Shown here: in pieces, positions 2,195 through 36,982 of the stretch
Layout of the letters: every line of letters starts with the position of its first letter
Numbering within the stretch: the first letter of the stretch is position 1
Notes under the pieces: model-generated
Told to the model about the DNA's origin: nothing
The model's input: only the letters and a program-made list of their open reading frames with translations
The model's database searches: none
Made by a program: the position numbers and the translations under genes
IMG/VR virus record: IMGVR_UViG_3300017772_002264
Span: 1-64,000 of that record
Direction: 5' to 3' (one strand)
Source: a virus
Length of the DNA stretch: 64,000 bases

Positions 2195-2428
2195 TTACTC
2201 GAATGTCCGCAAGTAGTCAGCTAAGTCTCGTAAGTTGTCTAGCTTGTCTAGTTCATCATCTGAGAATTCGCATCCCATTATATCTTCTATTGAGACTAGT
2301 AGTTCTATAGAATCTAAGCTATCAATACCTTTATCTTTAAGAGAAATGCCTGCATTAATATCCTCATCTGTAACTGTTATGTCTAATCGCTTGAGTATTT
2401 CGTCTTTGAGTATTTGTGTGCTATCCAT
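2195..2428 (-). CDS. acpP: Acyl carrier protein
   Basis: This 77-aa acidic protein has the size and four-helix pattern of acyl carrier proteins. Its GIDSLDS motif places the phosphopantetheine-accepting serine at residue 37 (D36-S37-L38). ACPs tether growing acyl or polyketide chains by a thioester. Its ATG overlaps the stop of the radical SAM gene before it (TAATG), with AAGGTG as ribosome site, so the two are translationally coupled. No holo-ACP synthase was seen, so activation would need a host enzyme. Its likely partners are the 3-oxoacyl-ACP synthase (32057) and acyl-activating enzyme (36985) encoded 30 kb away; that pairing is inference. Confidence 0.9.
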   Translation of the reverse strand: MDSTQILKDEILKRLDITVTDEDINAGISLKDKGIDSLDSIELLVSIEDIMGCEFSDDELDKLDNLRDLADYLRTFE

Positions 2429-3354
2429 TAGTATTCACCTTCGTTTAATTTAATATGTTCATATAGTGGGGCAACAGTCCAGTTTTCTGTTATTCTTCCG
2501 CGTCTACGTGAATTTGGGTCAGGTATTCCTGAGTCATTGTCTGTGTCCCAGTTTGTTATTTTAACCCAGTGTCCACGATTAACTAATTTATTACCTTCTT
2601 TGAGTGGGAATAATATAGTATTGGGTTCATCATTATATATTCCGTACATTGGATTATCGTGATGACTCCAGATATAGTCTTCTGATATGTTCATTTGTTC
2701 TGAGCATAACTTAACTAACTGATTTAATTTAACATTATCTGCGACTTCTGTTTGATATCTACCTAATTGTCCTACGTTTTTAATTCTCATAAAAGCATGA
2801 CGTATTGATTCACGTTCAAAGAGTTCTAATAACTGACCGGGTGCTGTTTCATTTACATCTGGAACAATGATTGTACCTGTGTCTAGTATCATTTTACGTG
2901 CTTTAATATTACGCAGGGCTTTTATTTTCTTTTCGGCACAGCGTAGTTCATCAATCTTTTCATACCAATCATCATTATCTACTCCATTGAGTGATAGGTA
3001 AACATGTCGTAAACCTGTATCATGTAATTCATCAACGTATCTGCGTGATGATAATCTTAATCCGTTTGTAAGTAAAATGCAACGATGTCCGAATTCAAAT
3101 ACTGAACGAATAAATTCACCACACTGTGGGTTCATTGTAGGTTCAGCACCAACTATTCGTATCATGCAACGACCATTTAAACGTGATAAGAAATCACGAA
3201 ACTTTTCTAAGTTCATGTCTGGGATTTCACGATTTGGTATGTAACAATTCTTGCAAGACATATTACATTTGTGTGTGATATCAGCCATGATATCCATAAA
3301 TGTGTTTTCTTCTGGGAGTTGTTCGTGATAATTAAGTAAGATGTTATCTATCAT
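2428..3354 (-). CDS. Radical SAM protein, partner of the ACP
   Basis: The protein is 308 aa. The CxxxCxxC cluster motif is C30-C34-C37 (CNMSCKNC), followed by a truncated radical SAM barrel with GAEPTMNP in the place of the GGEP SAM-binding motif. The C-terminal half resembles the MoaA-like/rSAM family in layout, but a substrate cannot be named. It is the first gene of a two-gene operon with the ACP, so its substrate may be ACP-bound or ACP itself. There is no Shine-Dalgarno sequence; a late-type box GATAAATAC (3361-3368 core) predicts transcription starting one base before the ATG. Confidence 0.85.
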   Translation of the reverse strand: MIDNILLNYHEQLPEENTFMDIMADITHKCNMSCKNCYIPNREIPDMNLEKFRDFLSRLNGRCMIRIVGAEPTMNPQCGEFIRSVFEFGHRCILLTNGLRLSSRRYVDELHDTGLRHVYLSLNGVDNDDWYEKIDELRCAEKKIKALRNIKARKMILDTGTIIVPDVNETAPGQLLELFERESIRHAFMRIKNVGQLGRYQTEVADNVKLNQLVKLCSEQMNISEDYIWSHHDNPMYGIYNDEPNTILFPLKEGNKLVNRGHWVKITNWDTDNDSGIPDPNSRRRGRITENWTVAPLYEHIKLNEGEY

Positions 3355-4757: not shown

Positions 4758-4870
4758 TTAAAAGAATAGTCGATATTATTCTTTACCCTTGGACAGAGTT
4801 CAAAAGACGTAGAGAAATGAAAAAAAGATTAGAGGAATTAAAGAAGCGTGATCCATTCATTTATAAATAG
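4754..4870 (+). CDS. 38-aa basic amphipathic protein
   Basis: The ATGA overlap with the preceding stop and an AAGGAAG ribosome site support translation of this short frame. The product starts MIKRIVDIILYPWTEFKRRR and ends KKRDPFIYK: a hydrophobic stretch, then a highly charged lysine/arginine-rich helix. It may be a membrane-associated helix. The last codons overlap a TATAAATA late promoter box that serves the next gene. The location among radical SAM genes leaves open a precursor-peptide role, but there is no direct evidence for that. Confidence 0.65.
   Translation: MIKRIVDIILYPWTEFKRRREMKKRLEELKKRDPFIYK
4862..4870 (+). promoter_or_regulatory. T4-type late promoter TATAAATAG
   Basis: An exact TATAAATA box (4862-4869) lies 17 bases before the ATG of the carbamoyltransferase gene and overlaps the end of the 38-aa gene. 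With late spacing, transcription would start near 4875, giving a leader of about 12 bases beginning with GAG. Confidence 0.55.
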
Positions 4871-4886
4871 GCGTGAGCCTGTTATA

Positions 4887-6413
4887 ATGGGTATCAGTGG
4901 TGCGATTAACCACGATGCCGCTGTATCAATCGTCCATGATGGCGAGATTTTATTTGCCGGGCATGCCGAACGATACTCTAAAAAGAAAAATGACTCTGAT
5001 TTAAATGATGCATTATTAAATGATGCTATTAATTATGGCGGTAAGCCTGATATAATTGCTTGGTATGAGAAGCCAATGCTTAAAAAATTACGTCAATTAC
5101 GTGCAGGTCAATGGCAATTAAGTTTAGATACCAGTGAATTACCGAGTCAATACTTAGAAAAATTCCCACAATTAAAACATATTCCAATTAAATATCAAAA
5201 GCATCATTATACTCATGCCGCAAGTGGTTATTTTACTTCGCCGTATGATGAAGCTACGATAGTTGTTATCGATTCAATAGGTGAATTCGAAACACTTACG
5301 TTCTGGAAGGGACGTGGAATGAGATTAGAGAAGGTATATTCTCAGAGTTATCCAAGTTCAATAGGTTTATTTTATTCAGCAATGACACAACGTCTTGGAT
5401 TAAAGCCTCAAGAAGATGAATATATTTTAATGGGTATGGCCGCTTATGGTGATCCACACAGATTATATGAAGGCAAAGAATTAATTCAACATATATATGA
5501 TGAGTTTGGTATTCTACATGAGTCTGGGTTAGTTGGTTACGGTATGGAGTCGAGTACTCTAATAAGATTTACAGAGAATTTGCATCGTGGTTGTCGATGG
5601 TTCTTACCTGAATTAAAAGAGGAACAAGACTTATTCGACTTAGCCGCCGCAACGCAATATGTTTATGAAATGATATTATCTGAAATATTAATTAAAGCAA
5701 AATTAAAATGTCATTCAGAGAATTTAGTTCTGATGGGCGGTTGTGCTTTGAATTGTAGTGCAAATAGTATAATAAAAGATTATTTCAAATCAGTATGGAT
5801 TATGCCTAATCCAGGTGATGCAGGTAGTTGTATCGGTGTCACTCAAAAATATTCACGTGAAAGAATTAAATGGAACAGCCCATATCTTGGACATGACATA
5901 CCTGGAGAGTATCCTGTCGAAGATGTTTACAATGCATTAATCAAAGGTTCAATTTGTGGCATTGCATCGGGTCGTGCAGAGTTCGGTCCACGTGCATTAG
6001 GCAATAGAACATTAACAGCAGACCCACGTGGTGATGATATTAAAGATAGAATGAATGAGATTAAACGTAGACAGAAGTTTAGACCATTTGCTCCTATGAT
6101 ATTAGAAGAATATGTCGATGAATACTTTGACGGTCCTTCGGGTCCTTACATGCAATTTATTGCAAAGTGTAAGCATCCAAAAGACTTCCCAGCAATTATT
6201 CACAAAGACGGTACTTCACGTGTGCAAACAGTTAACAAAGAACAACATGCAGGCCTACATGAATTATTAACACGATTTCATGATAAAACTGGTTGTCCTA
6301 TGTTAGTTAATACATCACTCAATATCAAGGGTATGCCAATCGTCAATGATGTTAAAGATGCAACAGATTTTGCTAACTTTTATCAAACTTTGGTCTTTAC
6401 AAGCAAGACGTAA
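4887..6413 (+). CDS. Carbamoyltransferase (NodU/CmcH family)
   Basis: The protein is 508 aa from the ATG at 4887, chosen because family members begin with ILGI-like sequence (here MGISGAINHDAAVSIV). The N-terminal Kae1-like ATPase half includes H/D residues and the GGCALNCSAN segment. The C-terminal YrdC-like half contains GRAEFGPRALGNRTLTADPR and VNTSLN blocks typical of O-carbamoyltransferases acting on sugars or antibiotics. Enzymes of this family transfer a carbamoyl group from carbamoyl phosphate via carbamoyl-AMP. Related genes occur in marine T4-like phages. Here it probably decorates a glycan or product of the surrounding operon, which is inference. Confidence 0.85.
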   Translation: MGISGAINHDAAVSIVHDGEILFAGHAERYSKKKNDSDLNDALLNDAINYGGKPDIIAWYEKPMLKKLRQLRAGQWQLSLDTSELPSQYLEKFPQLKHIPIKYQKHHYTHAASGYFTSPYDEATIVVIDSIGEFETLTFWKGRGMRLEKVYSQSYPSSIGLFYSAMTQRLGLKPQEDEYILMGMAAYGDPHRLYEGKELIQHIYDEFGILHESGLVGYGMESSTLIRFTENLHRGCRWFLPELKEEQDLFDLAAATQYVYEMILSEILIKAKLKCHSENLVLMGGCALNCSANSIIKDYFKSVWIMPNPGDAGSCIGVTQKYSRERIKWNSPYLGHDIPGEYPVEDVYNALIKGSICGIASGRAEFGPRALGNRTLTADPRGDDIKDRMNEIKRRQKFRPFAPMILEEYVDEYFDGPSGPYMQFIAKCKHPKDFPAIIHKDGTSRVQTVNKEQHAGLHELLTRFHDKTGCPMLVNTSLNIKGMPIVNDVKDATDFANFYQTLVFTSKT

Positions 6414-6424
6414 TCTGCTATAAT
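6396..6424 (+). promoter_or_regulatory. Sigma70-type promoter before the giant repeat gene
   Basis: -35 TTTACA (6396-6401), 17-base spacer, -10 TATAAT (6419-6424). It overlaps the end of the carbamoyltransferase gene, and the next gene starts 27 bases downstream of the -10 with an AGGAC ribosome site. Confidence 0.6.
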
Positions 6425-6450: not shown

Positions 6451-9400
6451 ATGGCTTACGATGGATTCTTTCTAACCTATAAGAACGATAGAGAAACCAA
6501 TGAACGATATGATAAGATACAGAAAAAGTATCCTAACTTTCGTATGGTTAAAATCAATTTAGAAGATTGGAATGACCCTAAGATAACGTCAGCAATCAAG
6601 AAAATTGGTAGTGTCGCTAACACTAAACACTTCTGGGTTATTGATCCAGATGTTGAAGTTGATTTATCTTTTGATTATGATTTTCAGACTAATGAATGGG
6701 ATGAAGATATCATTCACGTATGGAATGCAGAAGAAAGAAATGTATGGCGTTCAGTTGTTGGTGTCAAATTATTTAAGACAAGCGAAGTTCTTAAGCAGTC
6801 CGAAGCATATATCAAAGATGCTTATTATTTGACTGGCGAGTTCAAATCGCATGACTCAAATAATGTTGTGTATAAGCCTACTACAGAAACATATGACATA
6901 TTTTATTGGGAGAAAGACTTTGGAGTCGATAACCTCAATAAATTACGTGAACGTTTTCCTGAAATTAAGACAGTAACTGGCGAAACTAATATCGATGTGC
7001 ATAGCAAGTGCAGAGAATTAGCCCGCACAGATTTTTATTATTTAATTCATCCAAACACAGAAGTATTTGATACATTTAAATTCGATTATTCTTTTGCATT
7101 TGGACTTGATAAAGAAAAACAAAAGGTTGTTGTCTGGCAAAAGCAAAATCCAATGACTAATTTGACACGTGAATATCATGGACTAGGATTATTCCCTAAA
7201 GAAGGACCTATGTTCAAGGAACGTGAGTATGAAATATTTAATTTCAGAAAGAAAGCAGTCTATGAGAAAGATGCTATATGCAAAGACTTAGAGTTTCCGA
7301 TTATCAGAACACGTGACATGCATGATTTGAGTCACAAAGTTGATACGGATATGTACTGGCTAATTCATGAGGATGTCGAAGAATTTACTACTGAATATTA
7401 TCCATTTAGTTATGATAGAGAATTCATTCATAACTTTAGAGTCATGTCTGGTAATAATGAAGTACGTAATGGCATCCGTCTCGTCCCTAATAAACCCGAT
7501 GAGGACAAACAAAAAGATATGCCAGATTGTATAGGTACAATCAAGCAAGTACCTATTATATCAGCAAGTACATTACAGGGAGGAATAGATTCAGTTGAAA
7601 CTTTTCCTGCTCTTATTGTTGATCCAGCAGTTGAGTTAGATAGCAATTATTCATTCTATCCTGACTTGTATGATTTGGCAACTGCTCATGCATTAGGTAA
7701 AGGTGTAGTATTCGTTGCAGGTGATTATGATGAATACAATATGCAGTTTTATGAAGATGCGGCAGAGATATCACATGTTCCTGACTATGATATATATTTC
7801 TGGGATCGTGGGTTTGGTAATAATAACTTTACTGAATTACAGCAACGTTTCCCACGTATTCAATCAATGAATACAGAAACATTAACAGAGTTGCATGAAC
7901 ATGCACAGAAGAATTCTACATATAACTATTACTACGTTATCACAAGTGATACGACCGTAACCGATTTTAACTTTGATTATGAGTTTGATTTTTCTTTAAC
8001 AGAGGCAAGCCGTCAGCAAATTGTAGTATGGCAGAAAACAGACTATAAGAATAATGTACTTGAATATCAAGGCGTAGGCTTATTCAGAAAAGATTTTAAT
8101 CTATTCACTGAAAATAAGTATCAGCGTTTTGATTTTAGACGCAAAGCATTATATATTCCTTCAGAAGTTATTAAGCCGGTTGAATATGATTTAGTTCGCA
8201 CAGATAATCTAATGGATTTATCGCAAATTAAATCATGTGATACTGAAATGGTTTGGTTAGTAAGTAATGATGTTGATGATTTTGTCACTGATTATTATCC
8301 TATGAGTTATGACAAAGATAATATTCATAACTTTAAAGTCACTATCGGTACTACAGAAGTTCGTAATGGAATTAGATTAGTTCCAAGAAATTACGATGAA
8401 GAAAAGCAGAAAGATGTTGACAAAGTACTTGGTACTTTGAAACGTATTCCTGTAATTCATTCAAGCACATTAAAAGGTGGGCTCTCACGTATTGAAACAT
8501 ATCCTACTATTATAGTGGATCCAGCAATAGAATCTAAATTTAATTTAGAACATACATTTGGTTGGTATCCTGATTTATATGACATGGTATCTGCCCATGT
8601 CCTAAGTAAGGGGTTAATTTATATTGCATCCGAATACGATGAATATAATATTAAAGAGCATGAATTAGACATGACATATATTCCAGACTATGATATATTT
8701 TTCTGGGATAAAGGTTGGGGTGAAAGCAATTTCAAAGAATTGCAAGATAAATTTGAACACAGAATTAAAAAACTATCTGGCAATGCCTTAGAAGTTCACG
8801 AACAAGCAAGAGAACAAAGTAAATATAATTATTATTATATTATTACACCAGATACTGCAATATGGGATTTTAAATTCGATTATGAGTTTGAATTTTCTAT
8901 GACAGAAGAAGCTAGACAGCAAATAGTTGTTTGGCAACGAACAAATAAAGATGGCACACCTAGAGAATACTATGGGTTAGGATTATTCAGAAAAGATATT
9001 AATTTATTCACAGAAAGTCAATATGAAAAGTTTAACTTTAAACGTAAAGCTATCTATGAAACTGATGAACAAGTTCGTGATGTAGAATTTCCTATTATTA
9101 AAACGACTAATCTATTAGATTTAAATTACGAAGTCGATACAGCAATGTACTGGTTAGTACACGAAGATGTAAAAGATTTTGACTGTAGTTATTATCCTAT
9201 GTTATATGATAGTGACGCAATTCATAACTTTAAAGTTAATACATCAACTGGTATGCCTGTGCGTAACGGTATAAGACTTGTACCTCGTAATCCTAACGAA
9301 GAAAAACAAAAAGATGTAGATTTAATCGTAGGTAAATTAAAAGAAATAGAAATAGTAGAAGCAAGAACGCTAGAAGAAGCAGTGGAACTTGCAAATAATT

Positions 9401-11019
9401 ATACTTTCTGGATGGTCAATCCTGACTTAAAACTTATTAATCCAATGATAGATGATTATTATCCTGACTTATATAATTTAGGTCCAAGTCATATTTGGAA
9501 ACAACGTTCAAGAAAAGGCAAAGATTTAGGTCATGGCGGACTAGCATTTAGTAATAAAGATTATCATTCAGAAAATGTTAATCTACATGATGAGTATGGT
9601 ATGAGAGTGCCGGACAAACATAATATTAAAAAGTATTTCACACGTGATCCTTTCAAAGCGTATAAGCAATCAAAAGGTAGGGTGTTTTATTGGGTAATAG
9701 ATACCGCGGTAGAGTTATTAGATACATTTGAATTTGATTACTATCCTGATATCTTTTCTATTGAAAATGTGTTTGCATTTAAAAGCGAAGAAGGAAAAGA
9801 AGCTGGAGTATATCTAGTTCATAGACCTCATCTTGAAAAATTTAATCCAAGTGAAGAAGACTTCTCATTCGATAGATTTAAAAATATTATCCGAGTTGAT
9901 GAGATAGCAAGTAGAGTTGTAGGACATCCTGCATTCTATTTTGATGAAGGTATGTACAAAGAACATGCCAAGTATTTTAATGAACATACGAATATCGATG
10001 TAATTGATGCAAGTAAAGGACTTGATAAAGCATATATGAAAGCCGCAGGTATGACCAAATCGGGTTACTTCTGGGCTATCAATAATGATGTAGAATTAAC
10101 AGAAGATTTCAGTAGAACATATTATGTAGACAGGCATCACAAGTCACACTTTCATGTATGGCCAAAAGAAAATCCCTACACTGGTTACGTTCATCAATAT
10201 GGTGGACTAAGCCTTATACCCACTGCCGCTCTAAAAGAGTTGAAGCCCGATGATGACAAACTTAGAAAAATGAATTTCAAGAATAAGAAACCAGTTAAGT
10301 CTAAGAAAGCGTCTTCAAAAGATATTGCCTTTGATGTAGTGTTTCTTTCCTATCGTGAAAAAGAAGCAGAAGAAAATTATGCTAAATTACTTTCACGTGT
10401 ACCAAATGCAAAACGAGTTCACGGAGTTAAAGGTATCTTTAATGCTCATAAACGTGCGGCTGAAATTGCAGATACTAAAATGTTTTATGTACTGGATGCT
10501 GATGCGATAATTACAGATGAATTCGAATTCGAATATTTCCCGACAGTATGGGACGAAGATGCAGTCCATGTTTGGAAGTCTAAAAATCCTATTAATGGAT
10601 TGATATATGGTTTCGGTGGACTAAAACTATTCCCAACACAATTAGTGCGTGATGCAAAAGATTGGAACATTGACTTTACAACGTCAATTTCAGATAAATT
10701 TAAACCAATGCCAGTTGTTGCAAACTACACAGCATTTAATACCAATCCATATGACACATGGAAGTCTGCATTCAGAGAATGTACTAAATTAAGTTCAAGC
10801 ATTATTCACAATCGTAAAGAGGGTGATGATAATGAAAGACTTAATATTTGGTGTACGGTTGCTGATGAGAATGTTCCCTATGGTAAGTATTCAATAGCAG
10901 GTGCAAACGCAGGCAGAAAGTTTGGAAGTGAAAATGCGGGCAACCCAGAAAAATTAGGACTAATCAATGACTATGATTGGTTGACTAAACAATTTAAACA
11001 GGACTTTAACGATGAGTAA
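6451..11019 (+). CDS. 1522-aa tandem-repeat protein, glycosyltransferase-like
   Basis: This is the largest product here. It is built from three near-complete repeats of about 300 residues, starting near residues 148, 446 and 747 (YDIFYWEKDFG, YDIYFWDRGFG, YDIFFWDKGWG), with half-repeats at both ends. Each repeat alternates blocks such as YYYIITPDT, FDYEFEFS, QQIVVWQ, GLGLFRK and NGIRLVPR. The last unit opens like a GT-A glycosyltransferase (FDVVFLSYREKEAEENY, then AHKRAAEIADTKMFYVLDAD), with D-x-D-like acid pairs in each unit. That suggests nucleotide-sugar-binding domains, though catalysis is unproven. The protein is very rich in Y, F, W and D. It has no signal peptide or membrane segment. 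It overlaps the next gene by eight bases. Confidence 0.6.
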   Translation: MAYDGFFLTYKNDRETNERYDKIQKKYPNFRMVKINLEDWNDPKITSAIKKIGSVANTKHFWVIDPDVEVDLSFDYDFQTNEWDEDIIHVWNAEERNVWRSVVGVKLFKTSEVLKQSEAYIKDAYYLTGEFKSHDSNNVVYKPTTETYDIFYWEKDFGVDNLNKLRERFPEIKTVTGETNIDVHSKCRELARTDFYYLIHPNTEVFDTFKFDYSFAFGLDKEKQKVVVWQKQNPMTNLTREYHGLGLFPKEGPMFKEREYEIFNFRKKAVYEKDAICKDLEFPIIRTRDMHDLSHKVDTDMYWLIHEDVEEFTTEYYPFSYDREFIHNFRVMSGNNEVRNGIRLVPNKPDEDKQKDMPDCIGTIKQVPIISASTLQGGIDSVETFPALIVDPAVELDSNYSFYPDLYDLATAHALGKGVVFVAGDYDEYNMQFYEDAAEISHVPDYDIYFWDRGFGNNNFTELQQRFPRIQSMNTETLTELHEHAQKNSTYNYYYVITSDTTVTDFNFDYEFDFSLTEASRQQIVVWQKTDYKNNVLEYQGVGLFRKDFNLFTENKYQRFDFRRKALYIPSEVIKPVEYDLVRTDNLMDLSQIKSCDTEMVWLVSNDVDDFVTDYYPMSYDKDNIHNFKVTIGTTEVRNGIRLVPRNYDEEKQKDVDKVLGTLKRIPVIHSSTLKGGLSRIETYPTIIVDPAIESKFNLEHTFGWYPDLYDMVSAHVLSKGLIYIASEYDEYNIKEHELDMTYIPDYDIFFWDKGWGESNFKELQDKFEHRIKKLSGNALEVHEQAREQSKYNYYYIITPDTAIWDFKFDYEFEFSMTEEARQQIVVWQRTNKDGTPREYYGLGLFRKDINLFTESQYEKFNFKRKAIYETDEQVRDVEFPIIKTTNLLDLNYEVDTAMYWLVHEDVKDFDCSYYPMLYDSDAIHNFKVNTSTGMPVRNGIRLVPRNPNEEKQKDVDLIVGKLKEIEIVEARTLEEAVELANNYTFWMVNPDLKLINPMIDDYYPDLYNLGPSHIWKQRSRKGKDLGHGGLAFSNKDYHSENVNLHDEYGMRVPDKHNIKKYFTRDPFKAYKQSKGRVFYWVIDTAVELLDTFEFDYYPDIFSIENVFAFKSEEGKEAGVYLVHRPHLEKFNPSEEDFSFDRFKNIIRVDEIASRVVGHPAFYFDEGMYKEHAKYFNEHTNIDVIDASKGLDKAYMKAAGMTKSGYFWAINNDVELTEDFSRTYYVDRHHKSHFHVWPKENPYTGYVHQYGGLSLIPTAALKELKPDDDKLRKMNFKNKKPVKSKKASSKDIAFDVVFLSYREKEAEENYAKLLSRVPNAKRVHGVKGIFNAHKRAAEIADTKMFYVLDADAIITDEFEFEYFPTVWDEDAVHVWKSKNPINGLIYGFGGLKLFPTQLVRDAKDWNIDFTTSISDKFKPMPVVANYTAFNTNPYDTWKSAFRECTKLSSSIIHNRKEGDDNERLNIWCTVADENVPYGKYSIAGANAGRKFGSENAGNPEKLGLINDYDWLTKQFKQDFNDE

Positions 11020-11956
11020 AATACAAGAAAGACGGAAGGCCAGATTTGATAAAAGTAAAATAACAAAGTCAGACGACCTTTATGATAGCAAAGACCCATC
11101 AGTGGATATTAGTTCAGAAGTAGTACAAGATATACCTGAAAGCGAAGCTATTAAAATAACATCTACACCTGGAAAACGTAGAAAGATTAAACGAGATATA
11201 CTTGCAAAAGATTATGATTATCAAACTATGGCAGTCGAATATTCAAAAGAAAACGTCAGCCAGCAATTATATAATTATAGATGTGCAATGGAGTTTTTAG
11301 CACATGTCAAGTTAACGGATAATGATGCAATCGTAGATAGATTTAAAGATATGATTTATAGTTATCCGAATGTAGATATCAGTTCGTTTGCTAATAAAGA
11401 AAATGCACAGTTGTATAGTTGGATTATACAGCAAATGATTTATGTATATGGTCAGAAATACATTGGCGTAGTATATCTACTAGGTGGTGGTATAGGCCTA
11501 TTGGCTTCTATGCTATTAGATACGAAGATGCGTTTTGAAAATATTCGTTCATTTGATATCAATGGTACTGGCCAATTCTTGGCAGATGAATTACATAAGA
11601 AAGAATTACTACAAGACTGGAGGTTCAAAGCAAACACTCAGGATTTATTTGATATTAATTACATTGAAAATGAATTTCAAACACGTTTGCAGAGTGGAAA
11701 ACTTTCAGCACCTTACAAAGAGATACCAGGTACTATTATTAATTGTAGTGTTAGTCATTTAACTAATTTCCAGGATTGGTATGAAATGATTCCAGATACA
11801 AAAAGAGTAATAGTAGTTGGTGAAACTGGTGATGTGCCAAGGCCGTTTCCAAGTTCACAAAATTTCAACTTAAGATTTCCGATGTCATTTGAACAATACA
11901 GCGGAGTGATTACAGTTGGAGATAAACAATTCTTTATGAAAATGGGGCTTAAGTAA
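11012..11956 (+). CDS. Class I methyltransferase-like protein (short paralogue)
   Basis: The protein is 314 aa. A basic N-terminal tail (about 90 residues, KRRKIKRD) precedes a Rossmann-like domain with VYLLGGGIGLLASMLL as the glycine loop and IRSFDING as the strand-2 acidic motif, then GTIINCSVSHLTNFQDWYEM. The same three blocks occur in the C-terminal half of the next gene, so the two are paralogues. SAM binding is plausible; the methyl acceptor is unknown. It overlaps the giant gene by eight bases and the next start by one. Confidence 0.5.
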   Translation: MSKIQERRKARFDKSKITKSDDLYDSKDPSVDISSEVVQDIPESEAIKITSTPGKRRKIKRDILAKDYDYQTMAVEYSKENVSQQLYNYRCAMEFLAHVKLTDNDAIVDRFKDMIYSYPNVDISSFANKENAQLYSWIIQQMIYVYGQKYIGVVYLLGGGIGLLASMLLDTKMRFENIRSFDINGTGQFLADELHKKELLQDWRFKANTQDLFDINYIENEFQTRLQSGKLSAPYKEIPGTIINCSVSHLTNFQDWYEMIPDTKRVIVVGETGDVPRPFPSSQNFNLRFPMSFEQYSGVITVGDKQFFMKMGLK

Positions 11957-13368
11957 TGAAGCCATATGAAATTGCAGATAGACTAAATCTACTTTATGGG
12001 AATAGTAGACCGATGCTATCTGAGTTAGAAAGAATTGTCAATACTGAGGAACTCAGTAGCGTGTTTACTTTATCTTCTTACTTCTTAGGTAAGAAACATA
12101 GAGCAAACATGAATGCTCTAATGAATCTTGTTTATGAGAGACAAGTTTGTGATAACACATTCGTCCTGTTCAAAGTGTTAGACAAAATATCTCAAGACAA
12201 AGATTCATTGGATGCATTACGTAACTTCATGGCATGTGAAACTATTGATAGAAAATCAATGTATCTTGTTTTCAGAGTTTTAAATGGGATGTACCCAAAT
12301 GAAACAGATGCCTTGGACGATTTAAAAAATATCGTTTGTGCCGAAGATGGCGAGTTTGATAGAGATTTAATATTCTTATTGTTTAATATATTAGAGAAAT
12401 TAATCGATGATGAGGAAGGGTTAGGTGCATTAAAAAATGTATGTGGTAATCATAACTTTATTAAATCACAAACTGAATTATTATTCAGAGTAATAATGAA
12501 TATTGAATATCCTGATGATGAAATATTTAGTGCATTAAAAAATATTATTGCAGTTGATACAGACCCAGACTTATTTTTATTGTTCAAAGTTATTCAAGGG
12601 TTCGATGAATCAAATGAAGAAATTTCACAAGTTAAAAGTGCAACAATATTTAAGACAAAGATATTTGAATTAGCACATACCATCACTGAGGGAAAGTATA
12701 CTATTCCTATGAACATGAAAAAGATGATTAATCGTTTTGAAGGCGATGCATTAACTGATGCATTCAGTAGAGGGCAATTACAATCTAAATTATGGTTAAC
12801 AGATATAGTAAATAATTATGAAATTGATTTGGGTAAAACAATATATACATGTGCAGGATGGTATGGTGTTCTACCAGCGTTGCTATTTGAACGTTGCAAG
12901 ATTGAAGGAAATATATACAGTTTTGATATAGATCCAAGTACGGACAATCCAGCAGACACACTTAATAAAGAATATATCATTGACCAAATGAAATTCAAAG
13001 CATTTGTTAAAGATGTCGCAGACTTAAAATTCTCAGAAGAAACACTACCGATAAAACATTATAAATACAGTGATGCAGTAAAGTTCGAAGTTATGGATAC
13101 GACACATACAATTGGACAACCAACATGTGTTATCAATACTAGTTGTGAGCATATTGCAGAATTTGATAAATGGTGGAATGCTATTCCAAAAGGAACGCTA
13201 GTGATATTACAAAATAATGATTTTATTGAACATGATGACGAAACTGTTGTTAATACTAAAACAGATGTTGATAGTTGGGCTAAAGAACTAAACATGTCAA
13301 AAGAATTATTCAGAGGAACATTAGCATTAGAGTATTATAACCGTTATATGATTATCGGAGAGAAATAA
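11956..13368 (+). CDS. Helical-repeat plus methyltransferase-like protein
   Basis: The protein is 470 aa. Residues 50-220 form four or five helical repeats of roughly 40 aa with recurring LLFKVL/LVFRVL and DALKNI segments. The C-terminal 200 residues are methyltransferase-like: TIYTCAGWYGVLPALLF, IYSFDIDPS, PTCVINTSCEHIAEFDKWW. This domain is paralogous to the preceding gene product. The helical repeats probably bind a partner protein. The product is cytosolic by sequence. It is followed immediately by a GTG-started radical SAM gene. The substrate is not identifiable. Confidence 0.55.
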   Translation: MKPYEIADRLNLLYGNSRPMLSELERIVNTEELSSVFTLSSYFLGKKHRANMNALMNLVYERQVCDNTFVLFKVLDKISQDKDSLDALRNFMACETIDRKSMYLVFRVLNGMYPNETDALDDLKNIVCAEDGEFDRDLIFLLFNILEKLIDDEEGLGALKNVCGNHNFIKSQTELLFRVIMNIEYPDDEIFSALKNIIAVDTDPDLFLLFKVIQGFDESNEEISQVKSATIFKTKIFELAHTITEGKYTIPMNMKKMINRFEGDALTDAFSRGQLQSKLWLTDIVNNYEIDLGKTIYTCAGWYGVLPALLFERCKIEGNIYSFDIDPSTDNPADTLNKEYIIDQMKFKAFVKDVADLKFSEETLPIKHYKYSDAVKFEVMDTTHTIGQPTCVINTSCEHIAEFDKWWNAIPKGTLVILQNNDFIEHDDETVVNTKTDVDSWAKELNMSKELFRGTLALEYYNRYMIIGEK

Positions 13369-14676
13369 GTGAAAAATGCTCGGGTCAGAGACTACATAAA
13401 CAAAGAAAAGGTAGAAGCAAGGCAAGCCTTGAAGAAATTGCTAATGGAACACCAAGATGGCAAGAGCGACACTAGTAATTTTTGTGCGGCTCCATTTGCT
13501 CATATGTATGTTCACAGTAATGAAGGCCAACGAGTTTGTTGTATGTCTGGTGAAAATAGTTTAGTAACAGATGACTTAGATTTAGATTTAGAAAAACGTT
13601 GGGGCAATGATTACTACCAAGAGTTTAGAAAACGATTTCTACGTAATGAGAGACCTAGTACTTGTGCGAAGTGTTATGACATAGAAGATGCAGGTGGCAG
13701 AAGCGATAGAATGAATTTCAATGCTATGTATAATCCAAAGATTCAACCAAATGTTGAAACAGGAAATCAATACAATGCTCCTTTGGATTTAGATATTAGA
13801 CCAGGCAATTTATGTAATCTAAAATGTCGTATGTGTGGACCTATATCAAGTTCACAGATGGAGAAAGAAATAAAAGATAATAGAGTAATACTGAAACCAA
13901 TGTTAGGTGATGGTATTATAAGAAAATCAAATGTGTTAGAGAATGAATACAATATTGAGTTCTTGTTACAAGCGGCTGATAAAGGAGAGAGAATTAAGTT
14001 CCTAGGTGGTGAGCCAACAATTATGCCAGAAGTAGATAAATTTTTAGATATTCTTATTGATAAAGAATACTTTGATGTTCCAATACATTTTACAACAAAC
14101 TGTACGAATAATAATAAAAGGTTCTTAGATAAATTATCTAAGTTCTCAAGGATATCATTTAATTATAGTATCGACGGTATAGGCAAAGTAGTAGAATATA
14201 TTAGAACACCAGTGAAGTTCTCAACAATAAATAAAACTATAAAGATATATCACAATATTGCACGTGGAGATAAATTAAAATCACGTAAAAACGTATCAGA
14301 AATAAGTTTTACGTTGCAAGCCTACAATCTATTTAATTTATATGATACAGTCGTGTGGGCAAAAGAATTAGGGGTCACAGTTAGACCAGAAGTTTTAAGA
14401 GTTCCTGAATGGGATTCGATACGAAGCATTCCTCTTAGTATAAGAATACCATACTTAGAAGAATTGATTGAGAGATTTAATAAATGGGATGACGTATATG
14501 CTGAACGAGTTATGCCTGCATTGATTTATGCCCAGTCAGACGATAAAGAATATTCTCCATTGCATCTTGCAAGAGCAACTAAAAGATTTGATAAAGTTAG
14601 AGAACAGCATATCAAAGATTTTGTACCAGAAGTTTGGGAAGTTATTAAAAAGGATTATAATGATTTACAGTTATGA
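13369..14676 (+). CDS. Radical SAM protein with twitch/SPASM-like N-terminal cysteines
   Basis: The protein is 435 aa from a GTG start with a GGAGAG ribosome site. Unusually, a cysteine-rich segment precedes the barrel (C39, C57-C58, C99, C102). The radical SAM motif is C149-C153-C156 (CNLKCRMC), followed by FLGGEPTIMP for SAM binding. This layout, with auxiliary-cluster-like cysteines before the barrel, recurs in the products at 16826, 21982 and 60524, so they form one paralogous family. Auxiliary Fe-S clusters usually contact peptide or carbohydrate substrates. The reaction is unknown. Confidence 0.85.
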   Translation: MKNARVRDYINKEKVEARQALKKLLMEHQDGKSDTSNFCAAPFAHMYVHSNEGQRVCCMSGENSLVTDDLDLDLEKRWGNDYYQEFRKRFLRNERPSTCAKCYDIEDAGGRSDRMNFNAMYNPKIQPNVETGNQYNAPLDLDIRPGNLCNLKCRMCGPISSSQMEKEIKDNRVILKPMLGDGIIRKSNVLENEYNIEFLLQAADKGERIKFLGGEPTIMPEVDKFLDILIDKEYFDVPIHFTTNCTNNNKRFLDKLSKFSRISFNYSIDGIGKVVEYIRTPVKFSTINKTIKIYHNIARGDKLKSRKNVSEISFTLQAYNLFNLYDTVVWAKELGVTVRPEVLRVPEWDSIRSIPLSIRIPYLEELIERFNKWDDVYAERVMPALIYAQSDDKEYSPLHLARATKRFDKVREQHIKDFVPEVWEVIKKDYNDLQL

Positions 14677-15748
14677 TGATGTAAGAGTAATACACTTGGA
14701 AATTACTGAGAAGTGCCAAGCGGCATGTCCTATGTGTGATAGAAATATACACGGTGGGGCTGATAATCCTAACCTTGGACTACATGAATTAACATTAAAA
14801 GATATCAGAAAGATGATGCCTCCAGAGTTTGTGAAGCAGTTAGATAGAATTTATATGTGTGGCAACTTTGGAGATCCAATTGTTGCAAAAGAAACACTGG
14901 AAGTATTTCAATACTTTCGTTCATGCAAGAAAGAACTTACTCTTGGTATGAATACAAATGCCGGAGCGAAGAAGCCAGAGTGGTGGAGAGAGTTAGCCAA
15001 GACATTGGGTAACTGGAGTTATGTTAAGTTTTCATTTGATGGATTGGGTGACACTAATCATTTATATAGACAGAATGTTAATTGGGATATAGCGTGGGAA
15101 AATGCAGTAGCATTTATCGAAGCAGGTGGCAAAGCACATTGGGATTATTTAATCTTTGAACACAACGAACATCAGGTAGAAGAGGCAAGAGCATTAGCAG
15201 AGAAGACAGGGTTTAAGAAGTTTATTCCTAAAAAGACCGGACGTTTCTTTTCAACGATGAAACAAGTTGGCAAAGATGAACACCAAGCTATGAATAGAAA
15301 AGGCGGAACAACGCAGTTACTACAGAAACCTAAGGAAGTTAAGTATCAAAATAAAGCACTAGAAAAGATTGAAGTGCTTAAAAAAGAACATGGGTCATTA
15401 GAAAACTATTTCGATAATGTAGAAATAAGTTGCAAAGTAGCCGCAGAGAAAAGCATATATGTTAGTGCAGAGGGTTTAATTTTGCCCTGTTGTTGGGTAG
15501 CAGGCAGTATGTATAAATGGTGGCAGAAGCCTGGCGAGAACCAAGTATGGGAATTGATACAACAATCAGGCGGCAAAGATGAGTTCAATGCAAAGGAACA
15601 TGGAGTCAAACAGGTATTGGGCAATGAATACTTTTCTAAAAGACTTGTTGATAGTTGGGGTAAACCAAATACACATGCAGGTAAACCAATGGTATGTTCA
15701 CAAAAATGTGGAAAACAGTTTGATGCATTTGCGGAGCAGTTTAAATAA
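14660..15748 (+). CDS. Radical SAM/SPASM protein
   Basis: The protein is 362 aa from the ATG at 14660 (AAAAAGG ribosome site); a longer upstream frame into the previous gene is unlikely. The cluster motif is C19-C23-C26 (CQAACPMC). CGNFGDPIVAKE replaces the usual GGEP motif. The C-terminal cysteines (ISCKVAAEKS, ILPCCWVAG, MVCSQKCGK) fit a SPASM-type auxiliary cluster domain. It is a close paralogue of the protein at 20754, sharing GNFGDPI, HWDYLIFEHNEHQ-type and PCCW blocks. It overlaps the preceding gene by 17 bases. The substrate is unknown. Confidence 0.85.
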   Translation: MIYSYDDVRVIHLEITEKCQAACPMCDRNIHGGADNPNLGLHELTLKDIRKMMPPEFVKQLDRIYMCGNFGDPIVAKETLEVFQYFRSCKKELTLGMNTNAGAKKPEWWRELAKTLGNWSYVKFSFDGLGDTNHLYRQNVNWDIAWENAVAFIEAGGKAHWDYLIFEHNEHQVEEARALAEKTGFKKFIPKKTGRFFSTMKQVGKDEHQAMNRKGGTTQLLQKPKEVKYQNKALEKIEVLKKEHGSLENYFDNVEISCKVAAEKSIYVSAEGLILPCCWVAGSMYKWWQKPGENQVWELIQQSGGKDEFNAKEHGVKQVLGNEYFSKRLVDSWGKPNTHAGKPMVCSQKCGKQFDAFAEQFK

Positions 15749-16818
15749 TGGCTGAATTAAAACTCAGGATGAAAGCAGATACTTCATACCACGATATGTA
15801 TGACAGATACGAGCCTATTGCTGGGAATGATTATATTATCGTTGATTGGATGATGGGGAATACTTGTAACTATGCCTGTACTTATTGTGATGATTACTTT
15901 CATGACGGCAGTCAGCCTTGGCCTGAGGTAGATGTATTTCTAAAGTTCACTAAAAGATTAACAGACCATTATAGAGTTGTTGCTCCTGGTAAGAGAATAC
16001 TATGGAACTTGTTAGGTGGTGAACCTACTGTCTGGCCTAAGTTTGAGGAAGTATTTCATAAGATGAAAGCATACGACCCAAATGCTAGTGTAAGAATATT
16101 GACTAACGGTTCAAGAACCCTACGATGGTGGGAGAAGAATGCAAACATATTCGATGAAGTTATTATAAGTTATCATCCACAAAGTGCAGACTATAAACAT
16201 ATAACAGAGGTATCAAACATACTTACTGACAAGGGAACGATATGTTCTATTCAGTCAGCTATATATCCTCCGTTAATAGAATTAAATTATGAAGCGGCTC
16301 AATATTACCATGAGAATTCTAAGTGCATAGTTCATAATTCGAAAGCATTACAAGAAACATTAGGCAGTGATAATACATTTGTATATCCAGAAGGTGCGTT
16401 TGATAAATTAAGACAATGGGATGGACAGACAAAGTATCGGCAAGAGATAGATGACGCAGTTGAAAATGAATATGAGCATATAATGACAATAAAGAAGTTC
16501 AAAAGAAAGAACTTTGGTAAGCAAATGCGATATATAAACACTAAGACGGGCAAATCAGAAGTGTTCGATAATGCAAATCACATAATGGAACAAGGACATA
16601 ACTCTTGGAAGGGCTGGAAATGTATGATTGGAATAGAAGCATTGGTTGTTAATTTAAATGGAACAGTAACAAGTGGTAACAGTTGTTTCTTACACTTGTC
16701 TCATGGTAACATAAACAAACCAGACGAAATAGTATTTCCAACTGATGGCAGAATATGTCCACAAACGTGGTGCAGTTGCGTATCTGACACAGAAGTAACG
16801 AAATTTAAGGTGAAATAA
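15748..16818 (+). CDS. Radical SAM protein
   Basis: The protein is 356 aa. The cluster motif is C40-C44-C47 (CNYACTYC) after a short basic leader, with LLGGEPTVWP as SAM motif and VRILTNGSRT in the barrel. C-terminal cysteines (SGNSCFLH, ICPQTWCSC) may ligate a second cluster. It is related to the protein at 23405, which also has CNYKCSYC and a late WKGWKC-type block. Its start shares a base with the preceding stop. The reaction is unknown. Confidence 0.85.
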   Translation: MAELKLRMKADTSYHDMYDRYEPIAGNDYIIVDWMMGNTCNYACTYCDDYFHDGSQPWPEVDVFLKFTKRLTDHYRVVAPGKRILWNLLGGEPTVWPKFEEVFHKMKAYDPNASVRILTNGSRTLRWWEKNANIFDEVIISYHPQSADYKHITEVSNILTDKGTICSIQSAIYPPLIELNYEAAQYYHENSKCIVHNSKALQETLGSDNTFVYPEGAFDKLRQWDGQTKYRQEIDDAVENEYEHIMTIKKFKRKNFGKQMRYINTKTGKSEVFDNANHIMEQGHNSWKGWKCMIGIEALVVNLNGTVTSGNSCFLHLSHGNINKPDEIVFPTDGRICPQTWCSCVSDTEVTKFKVK

Positions 16819-16822
16819 ATAC
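16815..16822 (+). promoter_or_regulatory. Doubtful late promoter box ATAAATAC
   Basis: ATAAATAC lies just before the ATG at 16826. Late-promoter spacing would put the transcription start inside the ATG, and the box includes the preceding stop codon. It may be chance; the gene has its own AAGGTG ribosome site 13 bases upstream. Confidence 0.2.
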
Positions 16823-16825
16823 AGT

Positions 16826-18385
16826 ATGACCAAGAAAAACAATCCAGAATTAGAGAAAAACCTAGAAGAATTTCAACGTAGAACAGGTGCTCCAACAAAG
16901 ACATTCTGCCTTTTGCCTTGGGTACATCTAAGCACACGACCTAATGGACATATGCGTGTTTGTTGTACAGCTAATGCGAGTTCAGTTGGTCCTACTAATG
17001 ACAAAGAACACGGCGGAGAAGTTGGTGTTCTAAAAAATGCTGATGGTAAACCTGCAAACTTAAATCACAGCGACTTGATGTCAAGTTGGAATAATGATTA
17101 CATGAAGAATGTGCGTAAGCAAATGCTTAATAACGAAATGCCTCCTAGTTGTATGAAATGTTACAAAGAGGAAGACGCAGGCCACATGTCAAAAAGATAT
17201 TGGGAAACAGAATACTGGTCACGCAGAGTAGATATGGAAGAGGTTATCGCCGAGACGGCAGAAGATGGTTCTATCCCTCCAAAGATTCGTTACTTGGATT
17301 TGCGACTTGGGTCGAAGTGTAACTTGAAATGTATCATGTGTTCACCACACGACAGTTCAATGTGGGTAAAAGATTGGATTAAATTACATCCTAGTATTGA
17401 AAATGAGTCATTGAAAGAAACTATGCAATGGGGCAATAAAGGCCAGATTGATGGTGCAAGTTATAACTGGCATAAAAAGAATGATGCATTCTGGGATCAG
17501 TTGTATGACCAAATACCACACATGAAACAATTATACTTTGCTGGTGGAGAAGCAACAATTATTGAAGAACATTACACGTTGCTAGAAGAAGTTGTCGAAA
17601 GAGGATATGCTCCTGGTATTGAGTTGCGTTATAATTCAAATGGACTTGAAATGCCACAGCGTTTATTTGATTTGTGGAAACAGTTCAAGCGTGTACGTTT
17701 TCATTATTCAGTAGATAGTATTGGTGTAATGAATGATTATATTCGTTATCCAAGTGAATGGGAACACACAGTAAAGCAGTTTCATCTATTAGACAACACA
17801 GGACCTAATGTAGAAGTTACAGTAGCATGTGCAGTTCAGGCTCTAAACATTTATTACTTACCAGACTTTGTTAAGTGGAAACTAGAACAAAACTTTAAGA
17901 AGATTAACTTATGGCCGCTAGGTGCAGGTATGATTAACTATCACTTTGTTTATCACCCACCTCATCTAAACGTTAAAGTTCTTCCTAACTGGTTCAAAGA
18001 AATGACACATAAGAAATATGATATCTTCATCAAATGGTTAGAAGAAAACTGGGAGTTATGTACTAAAGGTTCACTAACACCAGTAACATATGAAGATTGG
18101 CGCCAAGCATCATATGGTGTGAAAAGATTACAAGGTATGTTGCAGTTCTCAGAGAGCGGTGACTGGTCACGACAGCGTATGCCAGAGTTTATTGAATATA
18201 TTAACAAAATGGATGGGATACGTGAGACTAATTTCAGAGATGTATTCCCAGAGATGGCACCATTGCTAGATTGGACTCCAGATGACGGAGAAGATTGGGA
18301 TGGTGAGTTTGATGACAGACTATTAAAAGAATTAGAAGACAACGGTTTTCACGTAAATCAGCAGGAGTTGGACATTGACAATTAA
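16826..18385 (+). CDS. Radical SAM protein, twitch-type
   Basis: The protein is 519 aa, the longest of the set. N-terminal cysteines C28, C46-C47, C109 and C112 precede the radical SAM motif C165-C169-C172 (CNLKCIMC), and FAGGEATIIEE is a variant SAM motif. It is closely similar in plan to the protein at 21982: LPWVHLSTRPNGHMRVCC here against LPWINISTRANGDLRVCC there. The C terminus is acidic. The gene ends overlapping the next by 11 bases. Its substrate is unknown, but the duplication suggests sequential or parallel steps. Confidence 0.85.
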   Translation: MTKKNNPELEKNLEEFQRRTGAPTKTFCLLPWVHLSTRPNGHMRVCCTANASSVGPTNDKEHGGEVGVLKNADGKPANLNHSDLMSSWNNDYMKNVRKQMLNNEMPPSCMKCYKEEDAGHMSKRYWETEYWSRRVDMEEVIAETAEDGSIPPKIRYLDLRLGSKCNLKCIMCSPHDSSMWVKDWIKLHPSIENESLKETMQWGNKGQIDGASYNWHKKNDAFWDQLYDQIPHMKQLYFAGGEATIIEEHYTLLEEVVERGYAPGIELRYNSNGLEMPQRLFDLWKQFKRVRFHYSVDSIGVMNDYIRYPSEWEHTVKQFHLLDNTGPNVEVTVACAVQALNIYYLPDFVKWKLEQNFKKINLWPLGAGMINYHFVYHPPHLNVKVLPNWFKEMTHKKYDIFIKWLEENWELCTKGSLTPVTYEDWRQASYGVKRLQGMLQFSESGDWSRQRMPEFIEYINKMDGIRETNFRDVFPEMAPLLDWTPDDGEDWDGEFDDRLLKELEDNGFHVNQQELDIDN

Positions 18386-34584: not shown

Positions 34585-35306
34585 TTCTTAGCCAATAACA
34601 TTGGAATATAATATTTACCAGCCCAATCAGTTAGGTCATCACGTGACATATCAAGTCTTGCTGAATACTTGTGATGTATGTCGTGACATCCCTCTCCCAT
34701 CATCCAGATGTTTGAAAAGCCACCTAATCTAGCAGGCCCACCCTCTTTGTGTGCTGAGAAGTTTAACCAAGTAAGTGCTACCCACATGTGAGTAAAGTTA
34801 AATGCTTGCCATACAACTAACCACGGGCTGATTATTAAATGTATTAATGTGAATAATGCATATAGTTTCCAATAGTTTCTATCAACATAAACTACATCAC
34901 GTTTCTTTAATAGAAAACGTAAACTAATATAATCCTCTGGCGTCTTATAATGTCCTAACCACATTTTCCAGAAGCCTAGGTCAGCTGGATTATGCGTGTC
35001 CTTATCTGTATCTGAATTCTTATGATGATTTAAATGAGAGTACACATATTGTATTGGACTTCCATTTGCACTCATAATAATACCATACAACATTGCATAG
35101 CGTCCTACGATATGAGGAACAAATTGGTCATGACATAACCATCGATGATATGCAATCTGTGACAATGCATTTGTTACACAACCATATAAGGTAAATGTTA
35201 ATGCAAGTTGCCAAGATCCACCTGTAATAAAGTATGCCGGTATACCAATTAAGGTAATTGCTAACATGAAAAATACTTTTACTGTTACTTTATTTTGATA
35301 TGTCAT
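34581..35306 (-). CDS. Second acyl desaturase (membrane)
   Basis: The protein is 241 aa with histidine boxes HRWLCHDQ, HLNHHK and EGCHDIHHK and hydrophobic segments at residues 8-45 and 145-170. It is clearly diverged from the desaturase two genes on, which suggests a different double-bond position or substrate. It overlaps the halogenase stop by one base and the GNAT start by four. Confidence 0.88.
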   Translation of the reverse strand: MTYQNKVTVKVFFMLAITLIGIPAYFITGGSWQLALTFTLYGCVTNALSQIAYHRWLCHDQFVPHIVGRYAMLYGIIMSANGSPIQYVYSHLNHHKNSDTDKDTHNPADLGFWKMWLGHYKTPEDYISLRFLLKKRDVVYVDRNYWKLYALFTLIHLIISPWLVVWQAFNFTHMWVALTWLNFSAHKEGGPARLGGFSNIWMMGEGCHDIHHKYSARLDMSRDDLTDWAGKYYIPMLLAKK

Positions 35307-36982
35307 TACTTCTTTAGTGATTCCTCTAATACTTCTTCGTGGCTTTTGCCATCAAACAAAAACTTTCTATGCCAATCGTATGCATGTGGAGCCAAATCGC
35401 CTTGTGCCTTACTTAATTTCTTGCAATACTCGAACATTATATCTGCTTTGTCTAACAGTTCTTTCTTAGTATTTAGTTCAACTGAATCATCAAAACACCC
35501 CATAGCAGTGGCTACATTCATCCACATATAATCAGGATATAAACTATTACCTATATGATTGTCAGGGTTTCTATACTCTTCCCAACATGCTTTGGCATGA
35601 TTGTGCTTCTTGCCATACTCTTTTTGTTTCTTCCAGAAATTAGTATCTTCTCTATTTGATAATGTATAATGATATGCAATAAAGTTTGCAGTATGGTCTT
35701 CTAATTTATTCATACTCTTATTATATGCATGTACACTTCCAGGTGATATAGTTTTATCCTCGTCCCATGCACGTTTTACTAATCTATCTAATATCTGTAT
35801 GCCCCATTGTGTTATGTATAATGCATTACCTTCCATTGGTTCAATAAATGAATGACTCATTCCGATGCTTAGTACGTTTTTATTCCAAGGAGTAACCATA
35901 CGTCCTGCCTTCCATGAAATATGTTTTGGTGGTTTGATAAACTCATAACCTTCCCAATATTTCATAAACTTTGCTTTTGCATCTTCGACAGATATTTCAG
36001 TCTTATCAAAAATATAACCTGAACCCATTCTGTTATATAATGAAATAACAAAGTTCCAGCCTTCGTCTTGTGCATACGTTTGTGTATACGGTTTGAATTC
36101 GTTATATATGTCCTTGTACTTTAGTGGACCAACAATAGCATCTTGTGTATGAATAAAATCGTAATCATGCCATTCATTATTCATCCCATCCACTAATACT
36201 TTGTGGAAGCCTGAACAATCGATAAACAAATCACCTTCATGTTCTATGCCATCTTCCATTATTAGTTTTGTAATGTATCCATCCTCATCTTTAATGATAT
36301 CTTTGACATCACCAATGGAATGATTAACCCCTTTTGGTATGGCAACTTTATCTCTAATGATTTCTGGAAATCTATTTGCATCTAAATGATATGTATATGC
36401 TGACCAGTCACCGACTAAGCAGTTATCATCCATATCAAATGGTGCCTTGTTACCTTTCATTAAATAATGTTGTTCATGCATATCCTCTGAAAGTTCATTA
36501 ATGTTTTTTCTACCATCACGTACTAATTGCAACCAATAGTCGTTCCACTTATCATTTACTCCGGCTTCGCCTTTAGAATTAGTAAAGTAATCATCTGTAG
36601 TAAGTTGTCCATAAAAACTTCTGGTTAGATGTTTCTCAGGTAGTGCGAATGAAAATGAATAGTATTGTACATCTTCCTTTGGTGCATTCCAATGGTCTGT
36701 TACATGGTGTCGTTTACCTGGTGTACTCCAACCAACAAATTTGTTACCTAATTTATAAACTGAATTAGTATAACTCATCCAGTCTCTTTCCTCAAGACCC
36801 ATTGTTGATAATAAATCATTTACTTGAGGCACTACACTTTCACCTACACCTATTGTAGGAATGTTATCACTCTCAATTAAAGTAATGTCTAACCACGGGT
36901 GCTTATTTTTCATGTAACCTGCAGTGAACCAACCGTTTATTCCACCACCAACGATTACAAGTTTTTTTAGTTTGGCTTTCAT
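35306..36982 (-). CDS. Flavin-dependent halogenase (tryptophan halogenase family)
   Basis: The protein is 558 aa. The FAD loop is VIVGGGINGWFTAGYM, followed by TIGVGESVVPQVNDLL. The lysine equivalent to the catalytic Lys of PrnA appears in NKFVGW. SHSFIEPMEGNALYITQWG is the second flavin region. The WxWxIP motif of classical halogenases is replaced by EGWNFVISLYNRMG, so halogenation itself is uncertain; some relatives act as monooxygenases or on carrier-bound substrates. Family members are known in marine T4-like phages. The gene starts two bases after the ligase stop with a GGAG site. Confidence 0.8.
   Translation of the reverse strand: MKAKLKKLVIVGGGINGWFTAGYMKNKHPWLDITLIESDNIPTIGVGESVVPQVNDLLSTMGLEERDWMSYTNSVYKLGNKFVGWSTPGKRHHVTDHWNAPKEDVQYYSFSFALPEKHLTRSFYGQLTTDDYFTNSKGEAGVNDKWNDYWLQLVRDGRKNINELSEDMHEQHYLMKGNKAPFDMDDNCLVGDWSAYTYHLDANRFPEIIRDKVAIPKGVNHSIGDVKDIIKDEDGYITKLIMEDGIEHEGDLFIDCSGFHKVLVDGMNNEWHDYDFIHTQDAIVGPLKYKDIYNEFKPYTQTYAQDEGWNFVISLYNRMGSGYIFDKTEISVEDAKAKFMKYWEGYEFIKPPKHISWKAGRMVTPWNKNVLSIGMSHSFIEPMEGNALYITQWGIQILDRLVKRAWDEDKTISPGSVHAYNKSMNKLEDHTANFIAYHYTLSNREDTNFWKKQKEYGKKHNHAKACWEEYRNPDNHIGNSLYPDYMWMNVATAMGCFDDSVELNTKKELLDKADIMFEYCKKLSKAQGDLAPHAYDWHRKFLFDGKSHEEVLEESLKK

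Follow-up and report, generated by a model that had tools for sequence, protein, structure and literature searches.

What is a phage gene for a 1522-amino-acid (aa), aromatic-rich, repetitive protein doing beside a run of radical S-adenosylmethionine (SAM) genes: is its product one of the enzymes, or the material on which those enzymes act? The gene, an open reading frame (ORF) at 6451-11019 (+), lies in a 64,000-nt stretch (here called the window) of the 71-kb viral record IMGVR_UViG_3300017772_002264, and an earlier note, made from the DNA letters alone, had proposed its product as a possible substrate or scaffold of the radical SAM enzymes. The ORF itself was borne out. Searches of Pfam, PHROGs, NCBIfam, PDB sequences and INPHARED returned no usable name for the protein, and the literature searched for this gene combination held no description of such a protein. 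We consider it probable that the protein is a glycosyltransferase of the GT-A fold and of a new family, with a single intact site and an arm of pseudo-glycosyltransferase (pseudo-GT) units, encoded in a decoration cassette of a T4-like phage; very probably it is part of the enzyme machinery beside the radical SAM genes, and not a substrate.

Architecture of the 1522-aa protein

Comparison of the gene and its product with themselves recovered the three ~300-residue repeats that had been reported, with start-to-start spacings of 891-903 nt. They had also been called near-identical, which they are not: pairwise aa identities are only 46, 49 and 58%, synonymous divergence (dS) is saturated, and the ratio of nonsynonymous to synonymous divergence (dN/dS) is ~0.2, indicating old repeats that have remained under purifying selection. 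The last ~225 aa belong to a domain family that also exists on its own (termed here F), and a profile of this family, which matches the C-terminus at 340 bits, also picks up five units upstream, at 19-45 bits and ordered along the protein (N, 45; A1, 38; A2, 31; A3, 19; and E, 44 bits), plus unit D at 10 bits. Among 300 shuffled sequences none exceeded 4.5 bits, the reversed sequence gave no match, and a profile built without this subfamily returned nearly equal scores, with upstream units at up to 44 bits. These matches imply that each 300-aa repeat is itself a triplet built from something smaller: the basic unit is ~90-140 aa long, each block (R1 to R3) is made up of about three units (A, B and C), and units N, D, E and F lie outside the blocks, giving about 13 units in all. 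Units B and C score near zero against the profile but lie in register. For the main units, the profile matches show common ancestry, pointing to assembly of the whole protein from one domain.

The whole protein is encoded at 16 IMG/VR loci, in full-length forms of 1522 aa (three blocks), 1219-1223 aa (two) and 920-925 aa (one). In a one-block relative (L005) R1 passes into R3, and in a two-block relative (L002) R1 passes into R2; each junction falls inside unit B, a pattern that fits recombination between repeats. Recent duplication or assembly artefact was rejected as the source of the array, given the 42-54% protein divergence between repeats, the occurrence of the three-copy gene on two more near-identical contigs of other assemblies, and the junctions of the shorter forms.

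As judged from alignments of homologues, the DxD motif is intact in F, partly kept in N, and lost or unconserved in all other units. In addition to both aspartates of the motif, residues E1303, G1389, K1392, R1442 and W1467 of the F domain are invariant in the 91 aligned relatives. The corresponding position reads DPD, DAD or DPE in unit N; HPN, MPN, MPG, TSD or TPD in units A; HED, HDD or SND in units B; NPD or DPA in units C; DTA or DTV in unit D; and NND, SND or DND in unit E, such that the aspartate pair is not kept across homologues in any of units A to E.

We modeled units E and F alone with AlphaFold2 (AF2), using a deep alignment of 91 sequences (mean predicted local distance difference test [pLDDT] 87.6, predicted template modeling score [pTM] 0.81). 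The model shows a predicted GT-A-like fold for these last two units, and the F domain runs beta-alpha-beta-alpha-beta and then DAD, a Rossmann-like core. Foldseek returned 58 PDB matches at E <= 1e-3. Every one of the 50 listed entries is a GT-A glycosyltransferase, LH3 or the LH3 complex; human LH3 leads (E 5.4e-6), and K4 chondroitin polymerase (E 1.2e-5), WrtF, RmlT, PcManGT and SunS are among the others. Against BFVD, the two strong matches were uncharacterized phage proteins and most others were annotated as glycosyltransferases, with a Megavirus procollagen-lysine dioxygenase also among them. An earlier full-length model of a one-repeat homologue (15 sequences, pLDDT 53), only suggestive, had listed matches mostly to GT-A enzymes and nucleotidyltransferases. 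The GT-A-like segments of the earlier note are thus supported. It had held that a GT-A fold with intact donor-binding residues in every repeat would speak against its substrate proposal; the fold was found, with the residues intact only in the last domain and partly in the first.

The reported richness in aromatic residues and aspartate is real (F+Y+W 14.7%, D 8.9%), but the aromatic content is only slightly higher than in stand-alone F-domain relatives (13.0 +/- 1.2%), making it a property of the family.

Distribution and gene neighborhood of the F family

A narrow scan located the F family at 49 loci, and a broader one in at least 600 confirmed stretches of uncultured-virus contigs. Nothing in Pfam, NCBIfam or PHROGs matched the family above threshold, and no relative was found among 50,697 phage records at the sensitivity used (single match, E 5). 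Bacteria contribute seven genome loci, and when the order around a Bdellovibrionia metagenome-assembled genome (MAG) was searched, F was present in 11 of 141 genomes. Degenerate units form arrays in other parts of the family too; a quick tree of 122 F domains needs eight changes to account for them, at least two being forced by well-supported branches.

Neighborhoods were counted at 100 representative F loci. A SPASM-type radical SAM family occurs at 75 of these and a methyltransferase-like gene cluster at 70, followed by a second radical SAM family (33), a carbamoyltransferase (25), and UDP-glucose/GDP-mannose dehydrogenase, AspH and SGNH/DUF6071 genes (11 each). DegT aminotransferase and epimerases are also among the neighbors, and one cluster that recurs at 10 loci has PHROGs matches to tail-fibre or virion proteins. 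In several of the F-bearing genomes examined from the order around the Bdellovibrionia MAG, F adjoins a radical SAM gene whose product is 59-68% identical to that of the window gene starting at 16826. Enzyme fusions occur as well: an Oligoflexia MAG (L069:4747-6708) combines F and a radical SAM/SPASM protein in one chain, and a 1244-aa protein (L173:1323-5054) from a genome of the order searched joins F to two GT2 domains (PF00535, 1.4e-34; PF10111, 5.6e-17), with a CxxxCxxC stretch, found by eye, between them. On a 937-kb Bdellovibrionia MAG contig, a 17-kb section (L175) brings together F, several radical SAM genes from the families seen in the window, a methyltransferase-like gene and a PLP (pyridoxal phosphate)-enzyme-like gene, and thus mirrors the phage cassette in a bacterium.

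The window itself follows this pattern (Table 1). Two genes, starting at 11012 and 11956, stand directly downstream where methyltransferases had been reported; they are methyltransferase-like by motif, but no library names them as such. The gene run ends with a thymidylate synthase and a PLP enzyme, and further radical SAM genes lie apart from it at 60524-61846 and 2428-3354. The evidence for the gene's own sigma70-type promoter is good: the window has just one perfect match, TTTACA-17-TATAAT with an extended -10, and the pair is retained 27-40 nt 5' of the start in seven of eight homologues (the eighth has a weaker -35). Conservation of the -35 is partly coding, because part of it falls inside the 3' end of the carbamoyltransferase gene.

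Table 1. Features of the 1522-aa gene and its flanks in the window.
Feature	Position	Strand	Basis and remarks
NolU/NodU-type O-carbamoyltransferase, conserved upstream neighbor	4848..6413	+	Pfam Carbam_trans_C 4e-52; phrog_1601; synteny
Sigma70-type promoter, TTTACA-17-TATAAT, extended -10	6396..6424	+	11/12 consensus; precedes the 1522-aa gene
Coding sequence, 1522 aa	6451..11019	+	Array of degenerate GT-A-like units, then C-terminal intact GT-A-like domain
Unit N, aa 3-142, GT-A-like	6457..6876	+	45 bits; usually DPD, with DPE in certain relatives
Repeat R1, aa 147-444, units A1/B1/C1	6889..7782	+	A1 38 bits, B1 ~1 bit; no conserved intact DxD pair
Repeat R2, aa 445-747, units A2/B2/C2	7783..8691	+	A2 31 bits, B2 ~3 bits; missing in some relatives
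Repeat R3, aa 748-1048, units A3/B3/diverged C3	8692..9594	+	A3 19 bits; neither B3 nor C3 significant by itself; identified by register with R1/R2
Unit D, about aa 1050-1137, degenerate	9598..9861	+	10 bits; DTA/DTV replaces DxD
Unit E, about aa 1145-1285, degenerate GT-A-like	9883..10305	+	44 bits; AF2 pLDDT mostly 80-95; first D of DxD unconserved
F domain, aa 1294-1517, intact GT-A-like plus C-terminal helices	10330..11001	+	340 bits to family profile; AF2 and Foldseek
DxD motif D1349-A-D1351 of F domain	10495..10503	+	Both D in 91/91 aligned relatives
Two related methyltransferase-like genes (314, 470 aa)	11012..13368	+	Motifs only, no curated family match; homologues in the cluster present at 70 of 100 loci
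Four radical SAM genes, two with SPASM match	13369..18385	+	Family of 16826-18385 adjoins F also in Bdellovibrionales

A T4-like phage is indicated by Gp23, the T4-type capsid protein, for which a nearly identical contig of 116 kb and two relatives of 342 kb carry the gene. Elsewhere in the window are genes for an SbmA/BacA-like peptide transporter (42452-43423, -; PF05992, E 8.6e-140), a tryptophan halogenase family protein (35306-36982, -; phrog_2928, E 1.7e-90) and a DegP-like protease with trypsin and PDZ domains (40406-41677, -).

Enzyme or substrate

On the substrate proposal, the aromatic-rich array would be cross-linked by the radical SAM enzymes, hydroxylated and carbamoylated. Genes for many radical SAM enzymes, an AspH-type hydroxylase and a carbamoyltransferase do stand in the immediate neighborhood, and the repeats vary in copy number, as known for repeat substrates. 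However, the array is missing from 62 of the 100 F loci, among which 44 keep the SPASM-type radical SAM gene, 48 a methyltransferase-like gene and 14 the carbamoyltransferase cluster, and the retention of the SPASM-type gene at array-less loci argues strongly against the array being the substrate. The repeats are, moreover, GT-A-derived domains with aromatic content near the family level, the DxD and several polar residues of F are invariant, F is fused to enzymes in bacteria, and no leader or core peptide was seen. We therefore rejected the array as radical SAM substrate as our main reading on the evidence of distribution and fusions, and regard it as very unlikely.

The F domain might instead be a nucleotidyltransferase or another enzyme of the same fold class that binds nucleoside diphosphate sugars. 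Nucleotidyltransferases share their fold with GT-A enzymes, and the low-confidence first model gave matches of the IspD and glucose-1-phosphate thymidylyltransferase types, but the matches listed for the good E+F model include none of these, and the invariant aspartate pair and the fusion of F to GT2 domains also count against it, leaving this alternative improbable. It is also quite unlikely that the cassette hypermodifies phage DNA, with the 1522-aa protein as a DNA-sugar transferase. Such a role would suit a gene run that combines radical SAM genes, a carbamoyltransferase, a thymidylate synthase and a PLP enzyme, and phage carbamoyltransferases can act on hydroxymethylcytosine; however, F and the radical SAM set also occur on long contigs of Bdellovibrionales genomes, and other F loci adjoin tail or structural genes and sugar-nucleotide genes.

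Several observations weigh against a glycosyltransferase. No sugar-nucleotide synthesis gene adjoins the 1522-aa gene in the window. Foldseek TM-scores (0.13-0.38) are too low to fix a glycosyltransferase family, partly because two domains were aligned at once. Units B and C are individually not significant and owe their membership to register and motif. No clear xED catalytic base, as present in most inverting GT-A enzymes (PMC7185993), was located in the F domain; a candidate is E1443, which occurs in 90 of 91 relatives and lies on a helix, just after the invariant R1442.

As a glycosyltransferase, the protein would use its F domain (aa ~1294-1517) for catalysis, binding a nucleotide-sugar via D1349 and D1351 and passing the sugar on to an acceptor that is produced or modified jointly with the products of the radical SAM, methyltransferase-like, carbamoyltransferase and hydroxylase genes; we infer the glycosyl transfer itself, its donor and acceptor, and the role of the array. 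The ~12 preceding units would be old duplicates of the GT-A fold that have lost their donor-binding residues, and the array may form a non-catalytic arm that binds the acceptor, provides spacing or docks partner enzymes, comparable to the dead GT domain of LH3. The target of the cassette is probably a host-surface glycan or a phage structural protein, decorated during infection by the T4-like phage. The scaffold role that the earlier note had offered is still the best guess for the array. A further and rather speculative extension, to which we assign a low probability, is that the dead domains constitute a length-adjustable scaffold for the radical SAM, methyltransferase-like and carbamoyltransferase partners, which would work one after another on a glycan or peptide as it grows; the one to three blocks would then set reach or product length.

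The F family is absent from curated libraries and is tied to radical SAM enzymes by both neighborhood and fusion; naming it as GT-A would make many unexplained viral radical SAM cassettes testable as machinery for decorating glycans or proteins. The pseudo-enzyme array is an unusual case in which repeated enzyme domains lose their donor-binding motifs yet stay under purifying selection.

Comparison with known systems

The nearest curated families are Glycos_transf_2 and Glyco_tranf_2_3 of Pfam, to which F relatives show weak, sub-threshold matches around the DxD. The best relative without a fused GT2 domain scores 21.0 bits (E 3e-4) against PF00535 (cut-off 23.3) and the 1522-aa protein 11.8 bits against PF13641 (cut-off 27); unlike members of these families, it stays below every curated cut-off of Pfam and NCBIfam and matches nothing in PHROGs. 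Evident relatives are two BFVD proteins from uncultured Caudovirales phages, A0A6J5LK21 (804 aa) and A0A6J5L5L5 (1076 aa; Foldseek E 1.7e-26 and 8e-26, 18-19% identity), both uncharacterized and with no function proposed.

Tandem GT-A domains are also found in E. coli K4 chondroitin polymerase (Foldseek E 1.2e-5). Both of its domains are active, whereas the phage protein has a conserved DxD in one domain only. Host-recognition clusters of pelagimyophages, which are likewise T4-like marine phages with such genes in a variable region, contain glycosyltransferases, UDP-glucose dehydrogenase and radical SAM cassettes; in the parts of that report consulted, GT8 is the commonest family and a tandem pseudo-GT protein is not described (PMC7029224).

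The best Foldseek match, the collagen lysyl hydroxylase and glycosyltransferase LH3/PLOD3, also carries GT-A-like domains in tandem, a single one being catalytic and the other accessory; its second GT-like domain has been described as non-catalytic (PMC6082870). The two proteins share about 8-9% identity, and LH3 differs in possessing a single dead domain, an N-terminal catalytic GT and a fused 2-oxoglutarate (2OG) hydroxylase, whereas the phage protein sets ~12 mostly degenerate units before a C-terminal catalytic-type domain, with hydroxylases encoded as separate genes.

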